Under the pieces are notes generated by a model. The model did not search any database, was not told the origin of the DNA, and was given only the letters and a program-made list of their open reading frames with translations. Shown here piece after piece: positions 9,983 through 36,323 of a stretch of 64,000 bases of DNA. The number at the start of each line of letters is the position of its first letter. Positions within the stretch are counted from its first letter, which is position 1. The translations under genes were made by a program, and so were the position numbers. The DNA comes from Polyangium mundeleinium (GTDB lineage Bacteria > Myxococcota_A > Polyangia > Polyangiales > Polyangiaceae), in contig NZ_JAQNDO010000001.1 of the NCBI RefSeq assembly GCF_028369105.1, positions 4,556,501 to 4,620,500 on the forward strand, read 5' to 3'.

Positions 9983-11296
9983 ATGACATCTCCTCGAACC
10001 AACGAGCCGACCGGCGGGGATCCCGAGGTCCTCAAGGTCGTCGCGCGGGGCAAACGGCGGCGGCTCCCGTGGGTGCTGCTCGCCGCCGTCCTCGTCGCCG
10101 GCGGCGGGGGCGGCTTTTATGTGTGGAAGAAGAAGACCGCCGCCGCCGCGGAAGGCACGAAGTACCAGTCGCAGAAGGTCGAGCGCGGCGACCTCCGGGT
10201 GACCGTCACCGCCACCGGCACGCTGAAGGCGCGCAACACCGTGGAGGTCGGCGCGGAGATCACGGGCCGCGTCCTCGAAGTCCACGTCAATTTCAACGAC
10301 AAGGTCACGAAGGGCCAGATCCTCGCCGAGATCGACACGGAGCAATACACGGCCAGGATCGAGGAGGCGACGGCGCAGCTCGCCTCGGCCAACGCCTCGC
10401 TCATGAACGCGCGCACCACGGCGAGCGAGAACAAGCTGAAGCTCACGCGGGCCGAGGGGATGCTGGCGCAGGGGCTCGCGCCGGCGCAGGACGTCGAGGC
10501 CGCGCAGGCGAACTACAAGCGCGCCGAGGCGCAGGTGGCGTCGTCGTCCTCGCAGGTGACGCTCGCACAGGCGTCGCTCAAGGTCGCGAAGACGAACCTT
10601 TCGAAGGCGGTCATTCGTTCGCCGATCGACGGGGTGGTGCTGAACCGCGCGGTCGAGCCGGGCCAGACGGTCACCTCGGGCATGCAGACGCCGGTGCTCT
10701 TCGTGCTCGCGGCGGACCTCGGTCAGCTCCAGCTCAACGTGCAGGTCGACGAGGCCGACGTGGGCTCGGTGAAAGAGGGGCAGGAGGCGAGCTTCACGGT
10801 CGACGCGTACGCGCAGCAATCGTTCGTGTCGAAGGTGCTCGCCGTGAAGAACATGCCGACGACGGGGACGACCGTGGTCACGTACGAGGCGTGGCTCTCG
10901 GTCGACAACACGAAGGGATTGCTCCGCCCCGGCATGACGGCGACGGCGACGGTCGTGGTCGACGAGCGCAAGAACGTGCTCCTCGTCTCGAATGCGGCCT
11001 TGCGGTTCAACCCGAACCGGAAGACGACGAGCACGCAGCAGCAGGGCATCTCGGTGAACCAGTTCTTGCCGACGGGGGGCCGGCCGGGGATGGGACAGCA
11101 AAAGCGCCCGACGGGCACGGGCACGGGCACGGGCGCGCCGCGTGAGCCGGCGCTCTGGCTGCCGACGGGCGGTGAGCCTCGCCGCGTGAAGGTGGAGGTC
11201 GGCGCGACGGACGGCATTCGCACGGAGATCCGCGCGGAGGAGATCTCCGAGGGGACCGACGTCGTGGTCAGCATGGTCGAGGCGCCGCGTGGCTGA
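9983..11296 (+). CDS. MacA-type periplasmic adaptor (membrane fusion) protein
   Basis: 437 residues. A short cytoplasmic start is followed by a TM anchor at about 28-47. A barrel-sandwich (lipoyl-like) half-motif 'TVTATGTLKARNTVEVGAEI' comes next, then a coiled-coil hairpin (about 115-205) and the returning half 'VIRSPIDGVVLNRAVEPGQ'. Beta-barrel and membrane-proximal domains complete it; a Gly/Thr-rich loop (TGTGTGTG) interrupts the last domain. It should link the inner-membrane ABC transporter to the TolC-type channel encoded downstream. The stop overlaps the ATP-binding gene by 8 bp. This is the first gene of a four-gene operon. Confidence 0.92.
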   Translation: MTSPRTNEPTGGDPEVLKVVARGKRRRLPWVLLAAVLVAGGGGGFYVWKKKTAAAAEGTKYQSQKVERGDLRVTVTATGTLKARNTVEVGAEITGRVLEVHVNFNDKVTKGQILAEIDTEQYTARIEEATAQLASANASLMNARTTASENKLKLTRAEGMLAQGLAPAQDVEAAQANYKRAEAQVASSSSQVTLAQASLKVAKTNLSKAVIRSPIDGVVLNRAVEPGQTVTSGMQTPVLFVLAADLGQLQLNVQVDEADVGSVKEGQEASFTVDAYAQQSFVSKVLAVKNMPTTGTTVVTYEAWLSVDNTKGLLRPGMTATATVVVDERKNVLLVSNAALRFNPNRKTTSTQQQGISVNQFLPTGGRPGMGQQKRPTGTGTGTGAPREPALWLPTGGEPRRVKVEVGATDGIRTEIRAEEISEGTDVVVSMVEAPRG

Positions 11297-12004
11297 GCTG
11301 CCTCGCGCGGACGGCGGCGCGAGATCTCCGATCGTCGAATTCCGGCGTGTCGAGAAGATCTACGGCGAGGGCGAGTCCGAGGTGCGCGCGCTCGACGGCG
11401 TCGACATGCGCATCGAGCGCGGGGAGTTCGTCAGCATCATGGGGTCCTCCGGCTCGGGCAAATCGACCGCCATGAACATGATCGGTTGTCTCGACGTCCC
11501 CACGTCCGGCGCGTACCTCTTCCGCGGCGTCAACGTCTGCGACCTCGATCAGGACCAGCGCGCGCTGCTCCGGCGCCATTTCATCGGGTTCGTCTTCCAG
11601 GGGTTCAACCTGCTCGCGCGGACGACGGCGCTCGAGAACGTGGAACTGCCGCTCGTCTACCGGCGCGTGCCGGCCGAGGAGCGGCGGGCGCGGGCGCTCC
11701 GGGCGCTCAATCTCGTGGGGCTCGCGGAGCGCGCGGGGCATACGAGCGCGAAGCTCTCGGGCGGCCAGCAGCAGCGCGTCGCCATTGCGCGGGCGCTCGT
11801 GACGGAGCCCTCCTTGCTCCTCGCGGACGAGCCGACCGGCAACCTCGATACCGCGCGGAAGGCCGAGATCATGGAGCTCATGGTCCAGTTGAACCGCGAG
11901 CACGGCATCACCGTGGTGATGGTGACGCACGAGCCGGACATGGCCGAATACGGGACGCGGACGATCGTGTTCCGTGACGGCAAAATCATCTCGGGGAATG
12001 GCTG

Positions 12005-12005
<1 letters not shown>
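11289..12005 (+). CDS. MacB-type ABC transporter ATP-binding protein
   Basis: 238 residues with a full set of ABC motifs: Walker A 'GSSGSGKST', Q-loop '[10 protein letters not shown]', signature '[15 protein letters not shown]', Walker B '[12 protein letters not shown]' and H-loop 'VMVTHEP'. It belongs to the MacB/LolD/FtsE group, in which the ATPase is separate from the permease. It overlaps the adaptor gene at its start and the permease gene by 1 bp at its end (TGATG), so the three are translationally coupled. It should power the mechanotransmission type of export rather than classical membrane translocation. Confidence 0.95.
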
Positions 12006-13202
<1,197 letters not shown>

Positions 13203-28935: not shown

Positions 28936-28947
28936 CTCGTAACGTTT
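28936..28947 (+). promoter_or_regulatory. Shared 12-nt motif CTCGTAACGTTT, copy 2
   Basis: Exact match to 27124-27135, here 28 nt upstream of the sensor kinase start codon and downstream of the sigma relic stop. The position fits a promoter or operator element for the kinase gene, but no regulator is assigned. Confidence 0.3.
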
Positions 28948-28975
28948 GGCCGCCGCGGCCTCAGGACATGCCGAG

Positions 28976-31093
28976 ATGAGCACTGCGACCGACCCGACGG
29001 AGCCTCTCCCCGCTGGATGCCCTCTTCACGGGGCCATCGGCCCTCGCGCGCCCGAGGGGTTGTGCCCGCAGTGCCTGCTCGACCTCGATTGGGGGGACGA
29101 CGACGCCCCGGAAAGCCTGCCCGTGCAGTTCGGCCCTTATGAGCTCCTGGCCAGGCTCGGCGAGGGGGGCATGGGCGTGGTCTACAAAGCTCGGCAGGTG
29201 AGCGTCGATCGCGTCGTCGCGCTGAAGCGAATCCGCGACGGCGAGCTCGCCGACGCGAAGGCGAGGCGCCGCTTTTATCGCGAGGCGAGGGACGCAGCCA
29301 AGCTCGACCACGTGCACATCGTGCCCCTTTACGACGTGGGAGAGCACGACGGACAACCCTATTTCACGATGAAGTACATGCCAGGCGGGACGCTCGAAGA
29401 GGCACGAGCCCGCTTCGCCGAGCCACGGCGCGCCGCAGCGCTGATCGCCACCCTGGCCCGCGCGGTCCACGCCGGCCATCGCCAGCACATCATCCACCGA
29501 GATCTCAAGCCCGAGAACATCGTCTTCGACGATCACGGCGAGCCGTACATCACCGATTTCGGCATCGCCAAGCGCCTCGACCACAGCACCCGCACCATGA
29601 CCGGCACCATCCTGGGAACGGTCGGCTACGTGGCGCCCGAGCAGACGACCCGTGGTCACCCCCTGCGCGACAGCGCGACGGCCGATATCTGGAGCCTGGG
29701 CGTGATCCTTTACGAGTTGCTCGCGGGGCGGCGTCCGTTCGACGGTCCCACGCTGCTCGAGGTCATGCGCCGCACCCAGGAGGAGGAGCCCGTACCGCTC
29801 GAACGTCTGCGCCGGGACGTGAGCCGAGATCTGGCGACGGTATGTCTCACGTGTCTCCACAAGGATCCCGCGCGGAGGTACATCTCCGCCGAGGCCCTCG
29901 CGGACGATCTCGAACGATATCTGCGTGGCAAGCCGATCTGGGTGCGCCGGCCGAGCCCCGGCAGGCGCGCGCTCGCCTGGTGCCGCCGCCATCCCTTCAC
30001 CGCCGTTCTCCTCGGCGTCTCCGCGCTCGCGCTCGTCACCCTCACGGTCTGGTCCCTCGCGGGCACCCGCGCCCAGGAGCAGGCCCGCCGCGCGGAGGTG
30101 CTCGCCGCCAACCGTTATGCCGCCCGCGCCGTGGCCGGGACCGTGCTGGCCCTGCTCGACGAGTACGCCACGACCGTTGCAATGGAGGCGCAGGCGCCGC
30201 AGCTCACCACGGCGATGGCGCTCCACGATGGGGAGGCCCTCCAGGGGCTCTGCGAGGAGATTCGCGCGCGCCAAGCCGGTCTTGCCTACTGGTTCATCAT
30301 CGACGCGGGAGGCGCTCTTCAGGCCTACGTCCCTTCCGAGCAAAGCGACAAGCGCAGCGTGACCCATTTCGCGTTTCGAGATTACTTCCGCGGTGCCATG
30401 TCGCTCGCCGCGGACCGCCCCGCCTATATCTCGCGTGCCTTTCGCTCGGCGACGGACAAGCGATACAAAATCGCCATTGCGGCGCCCATCCGTGGCGTGG
30501 ACGGGCGGCCGCTGGGCCTGCTTGCCGCCGAGATCGCAACGGATCGACGCTTGGGCGCCCTCGAGTTGAGCGACGACCATCGCGTCGCCGTGCTCACGGT
30601 ACGCCGCGACCGCGACTCGGCCTCCGAGCCATTGCCCAAGGAGCACATCTTATGGGTGCACGGCGGCGTCGAGCACGGGGAGGGGGTCGTCGTGGAGAGT
30701 GATGCGCTGCGCCGACTCACGGCACGGCGTGATGCGGCGGGGGATGCGGGGAGGGATCAACTCCGCCTGCCCCCGCCGGACTGGGTCGAGCTCGACGAAG
30801 CGTATCGTGATCCGCTCGACCAGCGGGGGATTCGCGAGGCCGGGGGGCCCTGGTTGGTCGGTGTCGCGGCCGTCGGCCGCACGGAGCTTGCGGTCATGGT
30901 GCAGACGCGCGTGGAGGATGCCACGGCGCTCGATCGGACCCCGCTCCGCGTCTACGCAGCTTGGTCCGTGGGGGGCGTGCTCCTGTTGGTGGCGAGTCTT
31001 TTCGCGACCCTGCGCGGCACACGGCGGCGCGCGAGCGCTTCGTACCCTGACCCGAGGGGGTCGCCGCGTGTCGACCGCCTCGGGTCACGATGA
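28976..31093 (+). CDS. Transmembrane Ser/Thr protein kinase with extracytoplasmic Cache-like sensor
   Basis: 705 residues. The N-terminus has a CxxH...CxxC zinc-ribbon-like motif (CPLHG, CPQC). The kinase domain (about 50-320) is intact: 'GEGGMGVVYKA', 'VALKRI', 'HRDLKPEN', 'DFGIAK', 'APE'. TM1 is at about 343-365. A Cache-type sensor of about 270 residues follows ('AYWFIIDAGGALQAYVP', 'YISRAFRSATDKRYKIAIA', 'PIRGVDGRPLGLLAAEIA'), and TM2 at about 662-684 precedes a short tail. Extracellular ligand sensing should control the kinase. The last 16 or so codons lie in the first unit of the 43-bp array, so the array has supplied the C-terminus. ATG 28976 is chosen over an upstream in-frame ATG at 28946. 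Confidence 0.9.
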   Translation: MSTATDPTEPLPAGCPLHGAIGPRAPEGLCPQCLLDLDWGDDDAPESLPVQFGPYELLARLGEGGMGVVYKARQVSVDRVVALKRIRDGELADAKARRRFYREARDAAKLDHVHIVPLYDVGEHDGQPYFTMKYMPGGTLEEARARFAEPRRAAALIATLARAVHAGHRQHIIHRDLKPENIVFDDHGEPYITDFGIAKRLDHSTRTMTGTILGTVGYVAPEQTTRGHPLRDSATADIWSLGVILYELLAGRRPFDGPTLLEVMRRTQEEEPVPLERLRRDVSRDLATVCLTCLHKDPARRYISAEALADDLERYLRGKPIWVRRPSPGRRALAWCRRHPFTAVLLGVSALALVTLTVWSLAGTRAQEQARRAEVLAANRYAARAVAGTVLALLDEYATTVAMEAQAPQLTTAMALHDGEALQGLCEEIRARQAGLAYWFIIDAGGALQAYVPSEQSDKRSVTHFAFRDYFRGAMSLAADRPAYISRAFRSATDKRYKIAIAAPIRGVDGRPLGLLAAEIATDRRLGALELSDDHRVAVLTVRRDRDSASEPLPKEHILWVHGGVEHGEGVVVESDALRRLTARRDAAGDAGRDQLRLPPPDWVELDEAYRDPLDQRGIREAGGPWLVGVAAVGRTELAVMVQTRVEDATALDRTPLRVYAAWSVGGVLLLVASLFATLRGTRRRASASYPDPRGSPRVDRLGSR

Positions 31094-31330
31094 CTCGAGG
31101 GGGTCGCCGCGCGTCGACCGCCTCGGTCGACGATGACCGGCGGGTGTCGCCGCGTGTCGACCCCTTCGGTCCACGATGACTTGCGGGTGTCGCCGCGCGT
31201 CGACCTCCTCGGTCCACGATGACCGGCAGGGGTCGCCGAGCGTCGACCCCCTCGGTCCACGATGACTTGCAGGTGTCGCCGCGCGTCGACCCCCTCTGTC
31301 CACGACGACCCGCGGGTGTCGACGCGAGGC
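31045..31330. repeat. 43-bp tandem repeat array 2 (about 6.5 units)
   Basis: The marker GATGAC (GACGAC in the last unit) occurs at 31089, 31132, 31175, 31218, 31261 and 31304, exactly 43 bp apart each time. The unit core is GTCGCCGCGCGTCGACC. The array begins inside the 3' end of the sensor kinase gene and ends at the convergent lipoprotein gene. The unit sequence is unrelated to array 1 at 4380-4660, but the period is the same. There are no variable spacers, so it is not a CRISPR. Open frames through it are by-products of the repeat. Confidence 0.92.
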
Positions 31331-31340
31331 GAGGGGCGTT

Positions 31341-32387
31341 TCAGCGCTCGAGTACGACCACCTCGATGCCGCCCTGGGCCTTCTTTCGGCTCGTGTAGAG
31401 CTCGCAGCCCTTGGGGGTGATGCCGATGGGCACGAGGTCCGTCCCCGGGTAGACGACGACGGGCGGAGCCGCCTCGCTCGGCAGCGCATTCGGCCAGCGT
31501 TGCTCGATGATCCCCGAGCCTCCGCCCGTGATCGTGGCTTGCGTGAAATAGAACCGCTCCTTCGTCGGGTTCCGCCGGACCGCGAGCCCTTTCCAGTCGC
31601 TCGTCCCCGCATTGCCGAGCGTCGCGACCGGGGACCAGGTGTTCGAGATGTCCGGGATCTCCCAGACCTCCGAACCGGCGCGCGTGTAGGTGTACTGCGT
31701 GGAAGGCGAGCCGTTCGTGAGGACGCGGGTGACCGAGTCGGTCGGTCCGAGCGGCGGGAGATTGTAGGTCGAGATTGTCGGATTGGGCTGGTCACCCGTG
31801 ATGAGGTGATAAAGCGGGTTGGTCGTGAGTTTCCCGAGGACCATCGAGCCTACCATCGAGCTCGGCGGCGCCTCGAGCTCGTAGTACACCGGTTTGTTGA
31901 ACTTGATCGTGAGGTCCCCCATCAGGAACACGTCCTCCGCGTGCTGAAGGATGCGCGCCGGGGATCCCGGGGTGTAGAAGGAGAATACCAGGTTGTACGG
32001 GTCATACCCCGCGGTCGTGTAGGTCGAGGGCAAGGGGATGGTCGATTTGACCGAAAACTCCGTGCCGATGCAGTCCCCGTTGCCCCCGCCGCCCCCGCCG
32101 CCCGTGCCGGAGCTCGAGGACGAACTCGACGAGGCGCTCGCGCTCGACGAGCTCGAAGCGGTGCTCGACGAGCTCGACGACGAGGAGCTCGCGCTCGAGG
32201 AGCTCGAGCTCGAAGCGCTCGCGCCCCCGGCTCCGCCGGCGGAGCTCGAGGTGGGCGAGCCCCACGCCTCACCACCCTCACCACCTGATCCGGAGGCGCC
32301 TCCCGTCGAGCACCCATAACCGAGGGCGATCGCGCAAACAGCAGGAACAATCGGCCACAATCGACTTACGAGGATGAATGAGCTCAT
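31341..32387 (-). CDS. Ser-rich lipoprotein, unknown function
   Basis: 348 residues from ATG 32387. The signal peptide has the lipobox LGYGC. A low-complexity spacer of about 75 residues follows (Gly/Ala, then long Ser runs, then Gly), and then a 250-residue mature domain with beta-propeller-like strands ('GYDPYNLVFSFYTPGSPA', 'NALPSEAAPPVVVYPG'). It ends 'GCELYTSRKKAQGGIEVVVLER'-like strands (residues 327-348). The Ser tract is written with repeated GAGCTCGA on the plus strand, prone to slippage. It may be a surface lipoprotein. A GTG 7 codons upstream is a possible but less likely start. Confidence 0.75.
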   Translation of the reverse strand: MSSFILVSRLWPIVPAVCAIALGYGCSTGGASGSGGEGGEAWGSPTSSSAGGAGGASASSSSSSSASSSSSSSSSTASSSSSASASSSSSSSSGTGGGGGGGNGDCIGTEFSVKSTIPLPSTYTTAGYDPYNLVFSFYTPGSPARILQHAEDVFLMGDLTIKFNKPVYYELEAPPSSMVGSMVLGKLTTNPLYHLITGDQPNPTISTYNLPPLGPTDSVTRVLTNGSPSTQYTYTRAGSEVWEIPDISNTWSPVATLGNAGTSDWKGLAVRRNPTKERFYFTQATITGGGSGIIEQRWPNALPSEAAPPVVVYPGTDLVPIGITPKGCELYTSRKKAQGGIEVVVLER

Positions 32388-32463
32388 TGGCTCATGCAAA
32401 CCGAGCACCCTGGGCCTGTCAACCTTTTGTCAAGTAGACGCCAATGTTCCTCGTCTCCGCCGA

Positions 32464-33093
32464 TCAGCGTTCATCCCGGGGCCTCCACGAGAGCACGAAA
32501 TCACAATCGCCCTTTTCCAGATCGAGCCCCTGCACCTCGACCGTGCCTTCCACCCCGGCAAAATCGAGCGCAGCTTCCCAGCAACCCACCAGCAGCTCGA
32601 CCACCGTCCCGCTCCGGAACACCGCGACCGGAAACCCGCGCAGCCGGAGCGCGCATGTGCATTCGCCGAGGTTCTCGTAGACCAGCCGGCCCGCATTCTC
32701 CGCGATGAGCTCGCGGCCGCGCGGGACAAAGCGCAGCAAGGATTGTGGCGTGAAGCCGACCCGGCGCAGGAAGCTGTCGACGACCGCGCGGAGGAGCGGG
32801 TTCTCGAAATAACGATTCATACAGCGCCGGAAGAGCTTGCGCGTGTCCGGATCCCCGAGCTCCGCGCGCAGCGCTTCGAGCAGGTCGTAATAAGGCTCGG
32901 GCAGGAGCCATTGCACGGCGATGGCGTCGCGGATCGTCGCGAGCGACGCAGGGGCCGTGCGCGCGAGGATGCGATCCCGCACGGAGGGATCGAGCGCCTC
33001 GACCTCGCGGAGCATGGCCTGCGCGAAGCTCGCGCGGGTTCGTTGCGGGGCGGGGCGGGAAGGACGAAGAGCGGAGGACGGATCGTCAAGCAC
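32464..33093 (-). CDS. Myxobacterial small conserved protein (DUF2378-like), third gene of the ATPase operon
   Basis: 209 residues from GTG 33093, which overlaps the preceding stop by 8 bp; the longer open frame would lie wholly inside that gene. Segments 'AMLREVEALDPSVRDRIL', 'MNRYFENPLLRAVVDSFLRR', 'SLLRFVPRGRELI' and 'VFRSGTVVELLVGCWEAAL' give an alpha/beta layout like the DUF2378 (TIGR02265) proteins that myxobacteria carry in many copies. The match is by layout and I am not certain of it. As the last gene of a tightly overlapped three-gene operon it may work with the ATPase and TOPRIM-like proteins, or simply be co-transcribed. Confidence 0.6.
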   Translation of the reverse strand: MLDDPSSALRPSRPAPQRTRASFAQAMLREVEALDPSVRDRILARTAPASLATIRDAIAVQWLLPEPYYDLLEALRAELGDPDTRKLFRRCMNRYFENPLLRAVVDSFLRRVGFTPQSLLRFVPRGRELIAENAGRLVYENLGECTCALRLRGFPVAVFRSGTVVELLVGCWEAALDFAGVEGTVEVQGLDLEKGDCDFVLSWRPRDER

Positions 33094-33838
33094 GCGTGGG
33101 GGCCCCGGCGTCGGCAAGTCGTTGGAGGAGCTGGGCGATCGAGAGGAGATCGGGCACGCGGCCGAGGAGCCGGTCGAGGGCGGTGCGCGAGGCCTCGTCG
33201 AGTGCATCGTCACGCGGCACGCTGCCCTTGCGATGGGGCGGCGCGCCCCCGGCCGCGAGCATCTTTTCGAGGCACCCCTGGGGCTTGCGGAAGTGCTCCA
33301 CGAACAGCTCCGACGGGAGGCTTCCGGGGATGGGGTCGCAGCCGCGGAGGAAGGCGGCGAGCGCTTCCCGGTTGCGGCACTGGAGCTTCTGGAGCGCGGG
33401 ATCGACGTCGTGTGCGGCGATGAGGAGCGATTCGGAGTTCCAGCGGAGGAAGTGGCCGTGGATGCGATCGGGGTCGAAGTTCGTCGAGGAGCGGAGCTTC
33501 ACCGTCCAGGCGTTGCTCGCGCGCGTCACCCAGCCGTCGGTCGGCGCGGGGGCTTTCGGAGGAGCCTCGATCGGGCAGCACGTGGTGGCCTTGTCGGCAT
33601 CGGCGATGCAGACGAGGTAATCGATGGGGCCACGGCTCCCGGGCGAGCCTTGTTTCGCCGCAGACGGCCACTGGTCACGGATGAAGGGCGCGAAGCCGCC
33701 GTGTCCTCGTACGCCGTGCCGATGGAGCTCCGGCGTGCTCGCTCCGGTATCGCCGAGCGTGTGCCGGAGGGCGCGCCGCAGGCACTGGTCGAGCTTGGCG
33801 TTGTGCTGGTCCTCCCAGCAGACGAGGATCCGGGTCAT
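33086..33838 (-). CDS. TOPRIM-like/DUF4276-like protein, partner of the AAA ATPase
   Basis: 250 residues from ATG 33838, overlapping the ATPase stop as ATGA. 'ILVCWEDQ' places a Glu at residue 9 after a beta strand. 'DYLVCIADADKA' places a DxD at 80/82. Glu followed about 70 residues later by DxD is the metal-binding pattern of TOPRIM folds, as in OLD nucleases and DUF4276 proteins. The C-terminal half is helical and charged. OLD-family proteins join an ATPase and a TOPRIM in one chain; here they would be split between two coupled genes (inference). No other nuclease motif is seen. The fold call rests on the two acidic motifs and operon context. Confidence 0.5.
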   Translation of the reverse strand: MTRILVCWEDQHNAKLDQCLRRALRHTLGDTGASTPELHRHGVRGHGGFAPFIRDQWPSAAKQGSPGSRGPIDYLVCIADADKATTCCPIEAPPKAPAPTDGWVTRASNAWTVKLRSSTNFDPDRIHGHFLRWNSESLLIAAHDVDPALQKLQCRNREALAAFLRGCDPIPGSLPSELFVEHFRKPQGCLEKMLAAGGAPPHRKGSVPRDDALDEASRTALDRLLGRVPDLLSIAQLLQRLADAGAPTRA

Positions 33839-35037
33839 GAGAGAGGGTCGTCCGCGTTCGCCGGGTCCAGGTGCCCTTGGGCGCGGAGCTCCTGGAGTGA
33901 GTAATGCTCGCGCCACTCGTCGAGCGCCTCCCTGTTCAGCATGCGCAGCTTCACACCTTCCGCCGTGGGCTCACAGATGCGAATGCTGCCGGCGGGATCC
34001 GAGAGGTAATCGAGGAAGCGGTCGGAGTGGGTAGTCACGAAGACGGCGGTGTGCTCCGAGGCGCGTTCCAGGAGGTAGACGATGCGGCGCAGGGCTGAGG
34101 GGTGGAGATGGCGATCTGGCTCGTCGAAGGCCAGGGCCATGGTGGGCTCTGGGGAAAGAATGGCGGCGAGCAAGCAAAGGTAGGTGGCCATGCCTTCAGA
34201 CATCTGGTGGCCAGAAAAGCGCGTGCTTGGGTATCGCTTGTCGCGGAACTGGAGCGAGATGCGCCCTCCGGTGTGCTCAGGCGGAAATTCCAGACGATCG
34301 ACGAACGGGAATTCGGAGCGGAGTGCGTAGAGGAGCTCGTTCCACGCATGTTCGTCTTCGTTCTCTTTGATGAAGTAGAGCGCGTTGACCAAGGCGAGCC
34401 CTCTACGATCAATGTGCGGTTCCATGGAGAGAACTCCGCCATCGAACGGCGAGAACTTCCCTTCTTGAGGGCTTCGGGTCCAAAGCGGCGTCGTCAAGAA
34501 GCCATCGTAGATACGAATACTCGACAAGGCCGACTGCAGGCCGGCCAGGGATGGATACGATGCCACCTGACGGACCGATTCGAAGGAGAGTTCATGCAGT
34601 GAGATGGCTTGATCCTCGAATACCTGCCTGCGCTCATTCCACAGGACGAGGTTGCCCGCCTGACGATCGACGAGGGCGTTCGGCACAACCCCCGGCGAGG
34701 GCCGCTTCTCGAGAATTTCTTGAGTAATGCGACCAGGCGAGCACGCCCCCATGCCGTAATGCAAAATGGGATCGTTCGGCGAAAACTCGATATCCAGATC
34801 GATGCGCGTCTCCTCTACGTCTGGAGCGCTCGTCATCAAGGACCAGAAGCCGTCGAAGGCGTGGCACCCAGCCACGAACCCCGCGCCTGCCCACCGCGAC
34901 AGCAAATCCAGCACTTGAATCACGCTGCTCTTGCCGGATCCGTTCGGGCCGATCAGCACGATGGGCTTGCCCGGCTCGACGTCGATCGTCACGTCGCGCA
35001 GCAGGCGGAAGTTTTTGACGGACAACTTGCGGAGCAT
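33835..35037 (-). CDS. AAA_21/OLD-like (SMC-type) ATPase
   Basis: 400 residues. It opens 'LRKLSVKNFRLLRDVTIDV', the usual first strands of RecF/OLD-type ATPases. Walker A is 'GPNGSGKSSVIQ', the signature-like helix is 'GHQMSEGMATYLCLLAAI' and Walker B is 'MALAFDEPDRHLHPSALR', followed by 'AVFVTTHSDRFLDYL' (switch His). There is no C-terminal TOPRIM domain, unlike GajA or OLD. Such stand-alone AAA_21 ATPases usually work with a nuclease or TOPRIM partner in phage defence. The start is ATG 35037. It leads the overlapping three-gene minus-strand operon. Confidence 0.88.
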   Translation of the reverse strand: MLRKLSVKNFRLLRDVTIDVEPGKPIVLIGPNGSGKSSVIQVLDLLSRWAGAGFVAGCHAFDGFWSLMTSAPDVEETRIDLDIEFSPNDPILHYGMGACSPGRITQEILEKRPSPGVVPNALVDRQAGNLVLWNERRQVFEDQAISLHELSFESVRQVASYPSLAGLQSALSSIRIYDGFLTTPLWTRSPQEGKFSPFDGGVLSMEPHIDRRGLALVNALYFIKENEDEHAWNELLYALRSEFPFVDRLEFPPEHTGGRISLQFRDKRYPSTRFSGHQMSEGMATYLCLLAAILSPEPTMALAFDEPDRHLHPSALRRIVYLLERASEHTAVFVTTHSDRFLDYLSDPAGSIRICEPTAEGVKLRMLNREALDEWREHYSLQELRAQGHLDPANADDPLS

Positions 35038-35084
35038 CGCGACGCGCAGCCTACCCGAAAGCAGGCTGCGTCGCACACGTCAGC

Positions 35085-36323
35085 TCATCGCAACCCACAT
35101 CCCACCGTGACCGCCTGATCCACCGTCGCGCGCTCGATCTTCCTCGTATCCGCGTCCACCGTGACCCGCACCTGCACGCTGCCGCCGAGCCCCACGCGCG
35201 CCACGCCCTTGAGCAGGTCGCCAATCAGCCCGCTCGCGTGCGCGCCGATCACCGAGGCGCCGAGCTCCGAGCAGGGGACCGCGCCGTCGAGGGTCATCTT
35301 GATCCGCGCCGCCAGGCCCTCGCGTTTCACCGTGCCGGGGCCGGCCAGCTTGAACGCGCCCGCGTCGACCGTCGCCTTCGAGATGCGCACGTCCGTGAGG
35401 TTCGGCGTGGTCTCGAACGTGGCCCCGAGCTTCGTCTTGCTCCCGAAGACGATGCCGTCGAGCTCCTTCGGGTGCGGCGGCACCCAGCCCTTCACCTCGA
35501 ACGACGCCGTGCCCGTGTACATCCCCTTCGCCTCGGGACCCCCGAGCGTCACCGCCACCGTCCCCTCCACCAAAGCGCCACGCAGATCCGCAGGGACCGA
35601 GAGCGAGCGCGCGCGGGCGAGGTCGTCGACCTTGGTGGAAGGCAACGTCGCCGTGAGCCGCATCGGCTTCGAGGTCGTGTCGAGCGCGAGCCGCAGCGGC
35701 GCGGCCTCGGCCGTCTTCGCGCCGAGCCAGATCGAGGCCGGATCCTTGCCGTTCCAGCGCGCGCCGAGGAGGCCCAGGTTCGTCCCCTCGAACGCCACCG
35801 TGCCCTCGAACGCGCCTTCGTCGCCGCGCGCCTTCGTCGCTTGGCCGGCGAGCACGAGCCACGGCGACTCTTTCGCGCCCCACGTCACGGTGACGTTGGC
35901 CGTCGTCGGCAAATCGAGGGCGCCCGGGTGGGCGTTGCTCCACGCGTCGAGGGCTTCGAGGCGCTCGTCCAGGGGGAGCGCCAGCGTGACCTCCACGTTG
36001 CGCGCGTCGATCCGCGTCGGCGAGAGGCCGTCGAGGTCCACGGCGATCCACGGGGACGCAGCCGTGAAGCCGGCGACGCCTTCGAGTTTGGCCGTGGCGC
36101 CGCGGAGCACGACGCGGCCCCACTTCGGGCTGAAGTCCTCGAACGTGAGCTCGATGCCACGCGCCCGCGCTTCTTTTTCGATCCACCACCGGGCAAGCGG
36201 GCGGTGGCCGAGCCCTACACCGAGGCCGACCGCCGCGGACAGGACGAGCACGAAAGCCACGATCCGCCGCCCTCGCGGGCTCTTCTTCGGGGGCTCCGGG
36301 GCCGTGTCGGGCAGCGTGTCCAT
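35085..36323 (-). CDS. AsmA/DUF3971-like membrane-anchored protein
   Basis: 412 residues. A basic Pro-rich start and one TM anchor at about 20-42 precede a long repetitive beta region of alternating strands ('LTFEDFSPKWGRVVLRGA', 'FTAASPWIAVDLDGLS', 'IDARNVEVTLALP'). This is how AsmA/TamB/YhdP-like periplasmic beta-groove proteins begin, so a role at the envelope, perhaps lipid transport, is plausible. The C-terminal 'GDLLKGVARVGLGGSVQVRV' resembles the type II secretion GspN-like beta fold, another possibility. It is separate from the ATPase operon (47 bp gap) but on the same strand. Confidence 0.55.
   Translation of the reverse strand: MDTLPDTAPEPPKKSPRGRRIVAFVLVLSAAVGLGVGLGHRPLARWWIEKEARARGIELTFEDFSPKWGRVVLRGATAKLEGVAGFTAASPWIAVDLDGLSPTRIDARNVEVTLALPLDERLEALDAWSNAHPGALDLPTTANVTVTWGAKESPWLVLAGQATKARGDEGAFEGTVAFEGTNLGLLGARWNGKDPASIWLGAKTAEAAPLRLALDTTSKPMRLTATLPSTKVDDLARARSLSVPADLRGALVEGTVAVTLGGPEAKGMYTGTASFEVKGWVPPHPKELDGIVFGSKTKLGATFETTPNLTDVRISKATVDAGAFKLAGPGTVKREGLAARIKMTLDGAVPCSELGASVIGAHASGLIGDLLKGVARVGLGGSVQVRVTVDADTRKIERATVDQAVTVGCGLR

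Follow-up and report, generated by a model that had tools for sequence, protein, structure and literature searches.

A 64,000-nucleotide stretch of the genome of the soil myxobacterium Polyangium mundeleinium, hereafter the window (positions 4556501-4620500 of the 13.25 Mb genome; contig C1 of G000), carries three minus-strand open reading frames (ORFs) that, as an earlier, preliminary description had it, overlap by 4 and 8 bp. They encode an ABC-type ATPase (gene 1), a putative TOPRIM-like nuclease (gene 2), whose family we call WED, and a third, small protein (gene 3). Genes 1 and 2 lie in a segment inserted between an AsmA-like gene and gene 3. We propose, with a probability of about 0.62, that they form a two-gene HEC-01/PARIS-like defence module, in which the ATPase would control a divergent TOPRIM-type nuclease. 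An ATPase joined with a nuclease is a typical layout of antiviral immunity in bacteria. This proposal draws on the insertion site, the strict pairing of the two genes, a conserved acidic triad in gene 2, a remote profile similarity of gene 2 to DUF4276/HEC-01B and the replacement of segments within the pair. The features are listed in Table 1.

Table 1. Features of the locus, in window positions.
Feature	Position	Strand	Size and remarks
Gene 1 (ATPase)	35037-33835	minus	400 aa
Gene 2 (P0002, WED family)	33838-33086	minus	250 aa; TOPRIM-like putative nuclease
Gene 3 (P0003)	33093-32464	minus	209 aa; GTG start; native neighbour, outside the module
AsmA-like gene	35085..36323	minus	native left flank; named by eye
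Inserted segment	about 33057..35082		~2.03 kb; ends good to a few bases; from blastn alignment to the empty G367 and G369 sites
Gene 2 acidic codons	E9 33814-33812; D80 33601-33599; D82 33595-33593	minus	
Variable segment V1	34400..34830	minus	middle of the ATPase (residues 60-212, approximately), lying between the Walker A and signature motifs
Variable segment V2	33640..33940	minus	last ~35 ATPase residues and first ~65 residues of gene 2
Hairpin	35045..35070	minus	11-bp stem, 4-nt loop; ends 7 bases ahead of the ATPase start codon

Gene 1 encodes a stand-alone AAA_21/OLD-type ATPase, as it had been described. The Walker A motif (GPNGSGKS, residues 30-37), a signature-like motif (QMSEGM, 278-283), the Walker B motif (LAFDEP, 302-307, with DEP at 305-307) and the H-switch histidine (H337) are read from its sequence, and it scores above the Pfam cut-offs for both AAA_21 (2.2e-28, 100.7 bits; cut-off 27) and AAA_15 (1.3e-20, 74.8 bits; cut-off 32.1). 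The top PADLOC model is HEC-01A (9.4e-40, residues 2-390), followed by other HEC-01A models, AriA (2.2e-26), mad3 (1.7e-24) and AbiLi (1.7e-21), among a total of 136 models at E ≤ 1. The GC content of ATPase codons 1-300 is 0.55-0.61, compared to 0.69 for the window.

The unit at this locus is an insertion of ~2.03 kb that holds the ATPase and gene 2. The AsmA-like flank is found in all six same-genus genomes and gene 3 in five, and genes 1 and 2 are present in three and absent from the other three; the trio is thus not a fixed core locus. In two of these genomes, G367 and G369, the site is empty and the AsmA-like gene continues straight into gene 3. Alignment of the window to these sites by blastn ends at 35083/35085 and restarts at 33056/33058, with no gap in the other genome, and the empty junction (ATGA in G369, GTGA in G367) is an overlap of the AsmA-like stop codon with an in-frame gene 3 start. 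Insertion is preferred over deletion because the empty state is such a clean translational overlap. Homology of gene 3 to both genomes begins at residue 12, which together with the blastn limits places the first ~12 codons of the window's gene 3 within the insert DNA. The AsmA-like gene of G378, a filled site, is 0.900-0.903 identical to those of G367 and G369, slightly above the 0.891 of the window (G292, which lacks gene 3, was left out of this distance table), so that interspecies transfer of the filled site, or its replacement by an empty one, is also possible.

These empty sites rule out gene 3 as a component of the module, and with it the idea that the three genes are one unit: where genes 1 and 2 are missing, gene 3 directly abuts the AsmA-like gene. 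Gene 3 is native flank, parted from its native partner by the insert, and no copy was seen by eye beside the distant modules (G085, G325, G381, G447, G538 and G520). Its proposed resemblance to DUF2378 was not borne out either. Pfam, including PF09536, gave no match to gene 3 up to E = 10, and NCBIfam and PADLOC none up to E = 1, with one weak match in PHROGs (0.048). The PF09536 model matches a single place in the genome, elsewhere, and an hhalign comparison of gene 3 with the protein found there, the only one in the genome to match DUF2378, gave 0.3%, a weak test with one sequence. No PADLOC model matched the AsmA-like gene.

At E ≤ 1, searches of Pfam, PADLOC, NCBIfam and PHROGs left gene 2 without a match, and Pfam gave none at E ≤ 10 either. 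Its distribution is patchy, with presence and absence at one site within one genus. A five-row profile run against the class had matches at E ≤ 0.01 in 13 of 317 genomes, and gene 2-like DNA was counted in 10 of 317, with full-length copies in eight (the P. mundeleinium genome itself and seven others: G377, G378, G325, G085, G538, G447 and G381) and partial copies in two (G520, with an internal deletion, and G400, ending at a contig edge); weak partial matches in G515, G547 and G411 were not counted as relatives. Named relatives with gene 2 are P. fumosum DSM 14668 (locus L010, taken as the same contig as G377) and Polyangium sp. 6x1 (L011, taken as G378). In a sample of the phylum, clear matches occurred in 3 of 377 genomes, all within this class; matches that were both partial and weak (E between 1e-4 and 3e-3) were excluded, two in this sample and three in another search. 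A scan of genome contigs, sensitive to close relatives only and with other phyla hardly covered, gave two Polyangium loci, and no homologues were found on plasmids, phages or viral contigs with the queries used (P0005; A1).

The pairing of the two genes is strict. A same-family ATPase ends 4 bp inside gene 2 in nine of the nine genomes with a readable upstream side, and all eight full-length members have the ATPase just upstream. The Glu9 and Asp80-x-Asp82 from which a TOPRIM fold had first been suggested are present and invariant in the eight full-length members, together with W8, D10, G45, F49, W57, P58, D73, C77, H127, G128, W133, E136, S137, D144 and others. Since five of the eight are only 33-40% identical to gene 2, this conservation of E9, D80 and D82 is above chance.

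The ATPase leads to a wider family. A class search with it gave 26 of 317 genomes at E ≤ 1e-30; the top nine (E ≤ 1.6e-57) are the gene 2 genomes, and in each the last 4 bp of the ATPase gene are shared with a gene 2-like gene, including the G520 copy with its internal deletion. Three more (G485-G487, loci L093-L095) have ATPases within the gene 2-type branch and no gene 2-like gene downstream. The remaining 14 ATPases form a separate clade, in which 11 are followed by an ORF of a sister family that starts ...[YW]ED... and carries a DxD motif ("YED"); of the other three, L107 and L109 hold effector remnants, with L102 a doubtful case. A tree built from 46 ATPases places the nine gene 2-type and three partnerless sequences on one branch (100/99) and the 14 YED-type sequences on another (100/100); these two branches join at 98/97, separately from the 20 sampled ATPases that are linked to DUF4276. 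The gene 2-type ATPases are not strictly one group, as the partnerless three lie inside, weakly placed (82/33).

Profile comparisons point, through a chain of remote similarities, to gene 2 as a putative, divergent TOPRIM-type protein with remote similarity to DUF4276. The gene 2 family aligned with YED at 93.2% in hhalign (score 54.1, with 100 shuffles at or below 23.5), the YED profile being made of 10 sequences; L099 and L104 stayed in it despite apparent frame shifts, and a motif filter removed L096. Against a DUF4276 profile built from myxobacterial loci and one Nostoc plasmid protein (26 loci extracted of 39 places; proteins of 180 aa or less excluded), the gene 2 family reached 82.4% and a score of 45.5 over 197 columns, compared to 21.4 for the reversed profile and at most 25.2 in 100 + 100 column shuffles. 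Jointly, WED and YED gave 95.1% and a score of 61.8 (100 column shuffles ≤ 15.0, reversed 19.6; three unrelated families 0.1-2.5%), and one of three sister-family proteins matches HEC-01B at 0.0071. In the alignment to DUF4276, E9 falls on the Glu of the VEG motif, D80 on a conserved Asp and E136 on the Glu of the HEFE region. DUF4276 itself aligned with an OLD-like TOPRIM profile (10 of 11 matches used) at 92.9%, across the region of the Glu and the DxD motif.

Of the systems that this pair resembles, HEC-01 comes first. It shares the ATPase family, judged on the E value given above, and the same order of two overlapping genes, and its partner protein HEC-01B is DUF4276, to which gene 2 is remotely similar. 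A Nostoc plasmid carries this arrangement, with a homologous ATPase (HEC-01A, 3.5e-153) whose gene shares 4 bp with a DUF4276 gene, HEC-01B in PADLOC (3.3e-84); it is the sole one of five plasmid matches inspected that is annotated with a DUF4276 partner. Among the 26 extracted DUF4276 loci, a Walker-A ORF lies just upstream in 20. However, gene 2 is not matched by the HEC-01B models, and for this reason we call the pair HEC-01-like and not HEC-01; the gene 2-type and YED-type ATPases also branch outside the 20 DUF4276-partnered ones. In G447, a canonical HEC-01AB pair (L123:4826-6657; 6.6e-139 and 7e-74) stands head-to-head with the gene 2 module. A methyltransferase-like neighbour there (1579-2307 of L123) matches the mad2 model (4.9e-19). 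Several HECs (Hma-embedded candidates), including HEC-06, are described as antiviral (PMC12988326); for HEC-01 itself, no statement of antiviral activity was found in the literature searched. Likewise, no published account of the gene 1-gene 2 pair was found in the open-access literature searched, preprints and most subscription journals lying outside the search.

PARIS offers a second likeness, a lone AAA_15/AAA_21 ATPase with a separate, small TOPRIM-type partner. Its rule asks for AAA_15 or AAA_21 plus a DUF4435 partner over the cut-off (PMC9122126). By the tests applied, gene 2 is not a DUF4435 protein like AriB, a candidate rejected on the lack of a Pfam match and an hhalign value of 0.8% against a profile of three closely similar proteins only; the AriA models also rank below HEC-01A for the ATPase. 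OLD systems of classes 1-3 and Gabija share a related ATPase (GajA model, 5.3e-14) and the TOPRIM idea, but there ATPase and TOPRIM are fused (PMC10568477), whereas in this pair the 400-aa ATPase shares just its last 4 bp with gene 2, a gene of its own. By eye, no GajB-like helicase was apparent beside the pair. The preliminary description had pictured a split OLD-like system with an unusual third component. The split pair is retained, with an ATPase of the HEC-01A/AriA/OLD kind and a gene 2 that connects to TOPRIM by a profile chain and not directly; the third component is given up, gene 3 being a pre-existing neighbour.

Alleles of the module are mosaic. Sliding nucleotide identity between the window and L010 falls to 0.44-0.55 in V1 and 0.61-0.69 in V2, compared to 0.92-0.97 in the AsmA-like flank, 0.91 between the two troughs and 0.90-0.97 past them; gene 3 beyond is lower, at 0.75-0.89. 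L010 and L011 are 0.58-0.78 identical in V1 and 0.96 in V2. The proportion of synonymous differences (pS) between the window and L010 is 0.11 in the AsmA-like gene, 0.24 in ATPase codons 1-50, 0.75-0.79 in codons 51-200 and 0.07 in gene 2 codons 201-250, and in ATPase codons 51-200 it is 0.60-0.70 for window and L011 and 0.51-0.68 for L010 and L011. Because near-saturated synonymous sites adjoin well-conserved stretches, we read these troughs to mean that V1 and V2 have been replaced by recombination. Positive selection is rejected as the only explanation of the variability in the middle of the ATPase, because the (near) saturation extends to synonymous sites.

Just 5′ of the ATPase start, the same hairpin stem is found in the window, L010 and L011 (z -2.8, -2.8 and -3.4). 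Its absence from both empty sites indicates that it was brought in by the insert, and it may mask the ribosome site. Folding of six further WED loci did not show this stem ahead of the ATPase; one of them, L005, forms another hairpin (z -2.2).

A mechanism can be proposed by analogy with PARIS, where AriA keeps AriB inactive until it senses Ocr or another trigger, and freed AriB, a TOPRIM tRNase, dimerises and cuts tRNA-Lys (PMC12409363). The ABC-type ATPase of the present pair would most likely form a scaffold, sense an infection trigger, probably through the variable middle segment V1, and hold gene 2 in check. Once freed, gene 2 would act as a TOPRIM-type, metal-dependent nuclease (E9, D80 and D82) that cuts tRNA or DNA, and this cleavage would stop the infected cell. 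We infer on these lines a TOPRIM fold and nuclease activity for gene 2, sensing by the ATPase and an anti-phage role of the pair with an abortive outcome; by the same analogy, V1 may be the sensing region and V2 the docking surface.

Several results weigh against this interpretation. Direct comparison to the OLD-like TOPRIM profile was negative (gene 2 0.8%, YED 0.2%, the joint profile 3.9%), so that the TOPRIM assignment depends on a two-step chain, and the first step for gene 2 alone is moderate (82.4%, with six random 12-sequence subsets giving 25.6-81.3%). AlphaFold models, made from three-sequence alignments, had pLDDT values of 36.1 for gene 2 and 33.4 for the ATPase, too low for fold searches; the beta-alpha-beta-alpha-beta order predicted for gene 2 is compatible with TOPRIM and, at this low confidence, is not evidence for it. 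Neither gene 2 nor the Nostoc DUF4276 protein had a credible relative in the PDB by sequence or profile search. Within the sister family, L096 has a lysine at the E9 position (YKD) and L101 lacks a clean DxD. HEC-01B models did not match gene 2 at E ≤ 1 or five of its relatives at E ≤ 10, and no defence genes were seen beside the modules examined, except in G447, in a scan of eight proteins (two from the window) with genes called by a crude script.

The pair could instead be a toxin-antitoxin-like addiction unit, with gene 2 as a toxic nuclease and the ATPase as its neutraliser, serving selfish maintenance or plasmid exclusion and needing no phage trigger. The tight 4-bp overlap would suit such a unit, as would the broken effectors beside intact ATPases (the G520 copy, the remnants in L107 and L109 and the doubtful L102), although the ATPase-based search by which the L loci were found favours loci with an intact ATPase. 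Effector loss of this kind (G520; sister-family L107 and L109) fits a costly effector. Replacement of ATPase segments suits changing triggers better than plain neutralisation, an argument that is not decisive, and we regard the addiction unit as unlikely.

An ABC ATPase together with a TOPRIM protein is also the make-up of RecF/RecR, and genes 1 and 2 might accordingly be a RecF/RecR-like repair or replication-restart pair acting on the cell's own DNA, outside defence. The N-terminus of the ATPase weakly matches a RecF profile (NCBIfam TIGR00611, 4.6e-7), and an archaeal OLD-class ATPase is reported to function in the cell cycle and not in defence (PMC12796447). Absence of the pair from three of the six same-genus genomes and the scatter of gene 2-like DNA over 10 of 317 genomes in the class are unlike housekeeping, and the top-scoring models are defence candidates, in a library that holds defence proteins only; such a repair role seems rather improbable. 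That gene 2 is a non-catalytic or differently folded partner, with the ATPase as effector, would agree with the negative direct TOPRIM comparison and the lack of a confident structure, but it is hard to square with a triad invariant in 8/8 members, with E9 at a strand end and D80 just past a predicted strand in the low-confidence model, and with a DUF4276 match far over its shuffles, and we consider it very unlikely.

Returning to the defence module, a bolder version of it is possible, and we offer it tentatively and with more doubt than belief. Gene 2 and YED would together be an undescribed TOPRIM effector clade with its own ATPase branch. The V1 and V2 cassettes, serving as a matched set of surfaces for trigger sensing and for docking, would be exchanged from one species to another while the rest stays fixed, so that the specificity of the module would change by recombination.

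Some neighbouring features were also noted. Between gene 3 and a Ser/Thr kinase gene (28946-31093) lie a Ser-rich lipoprotein-like gene (31341-32408) and tandem repeats (31068-31260). The kinase matches the PADLOC model PD-T4-6 at 1.4e-77 over the kinase domain, and the match is hence little informative. DNA between gene 3 and the kinase is unmatched in L010 and L011, and the repeats partly match G367; the spot beside gene 3 is thus variable as well. In L011, a partial duplicate (11127-12191) fuses the end of an AsmA-like gene to the end of gene 3.

The WED proteins add an effector family that is missed by Pfam, PADLOC, NCBIfam and PHROGs, and suggest that HEC-01/PARIS-like pairs extend beyond the models that now describe them. 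This one site occurs in nature filled, empty or with replaced segments, and its alleles could serve to map the surfaces by which such ATPases sense triggers and bind their partners.

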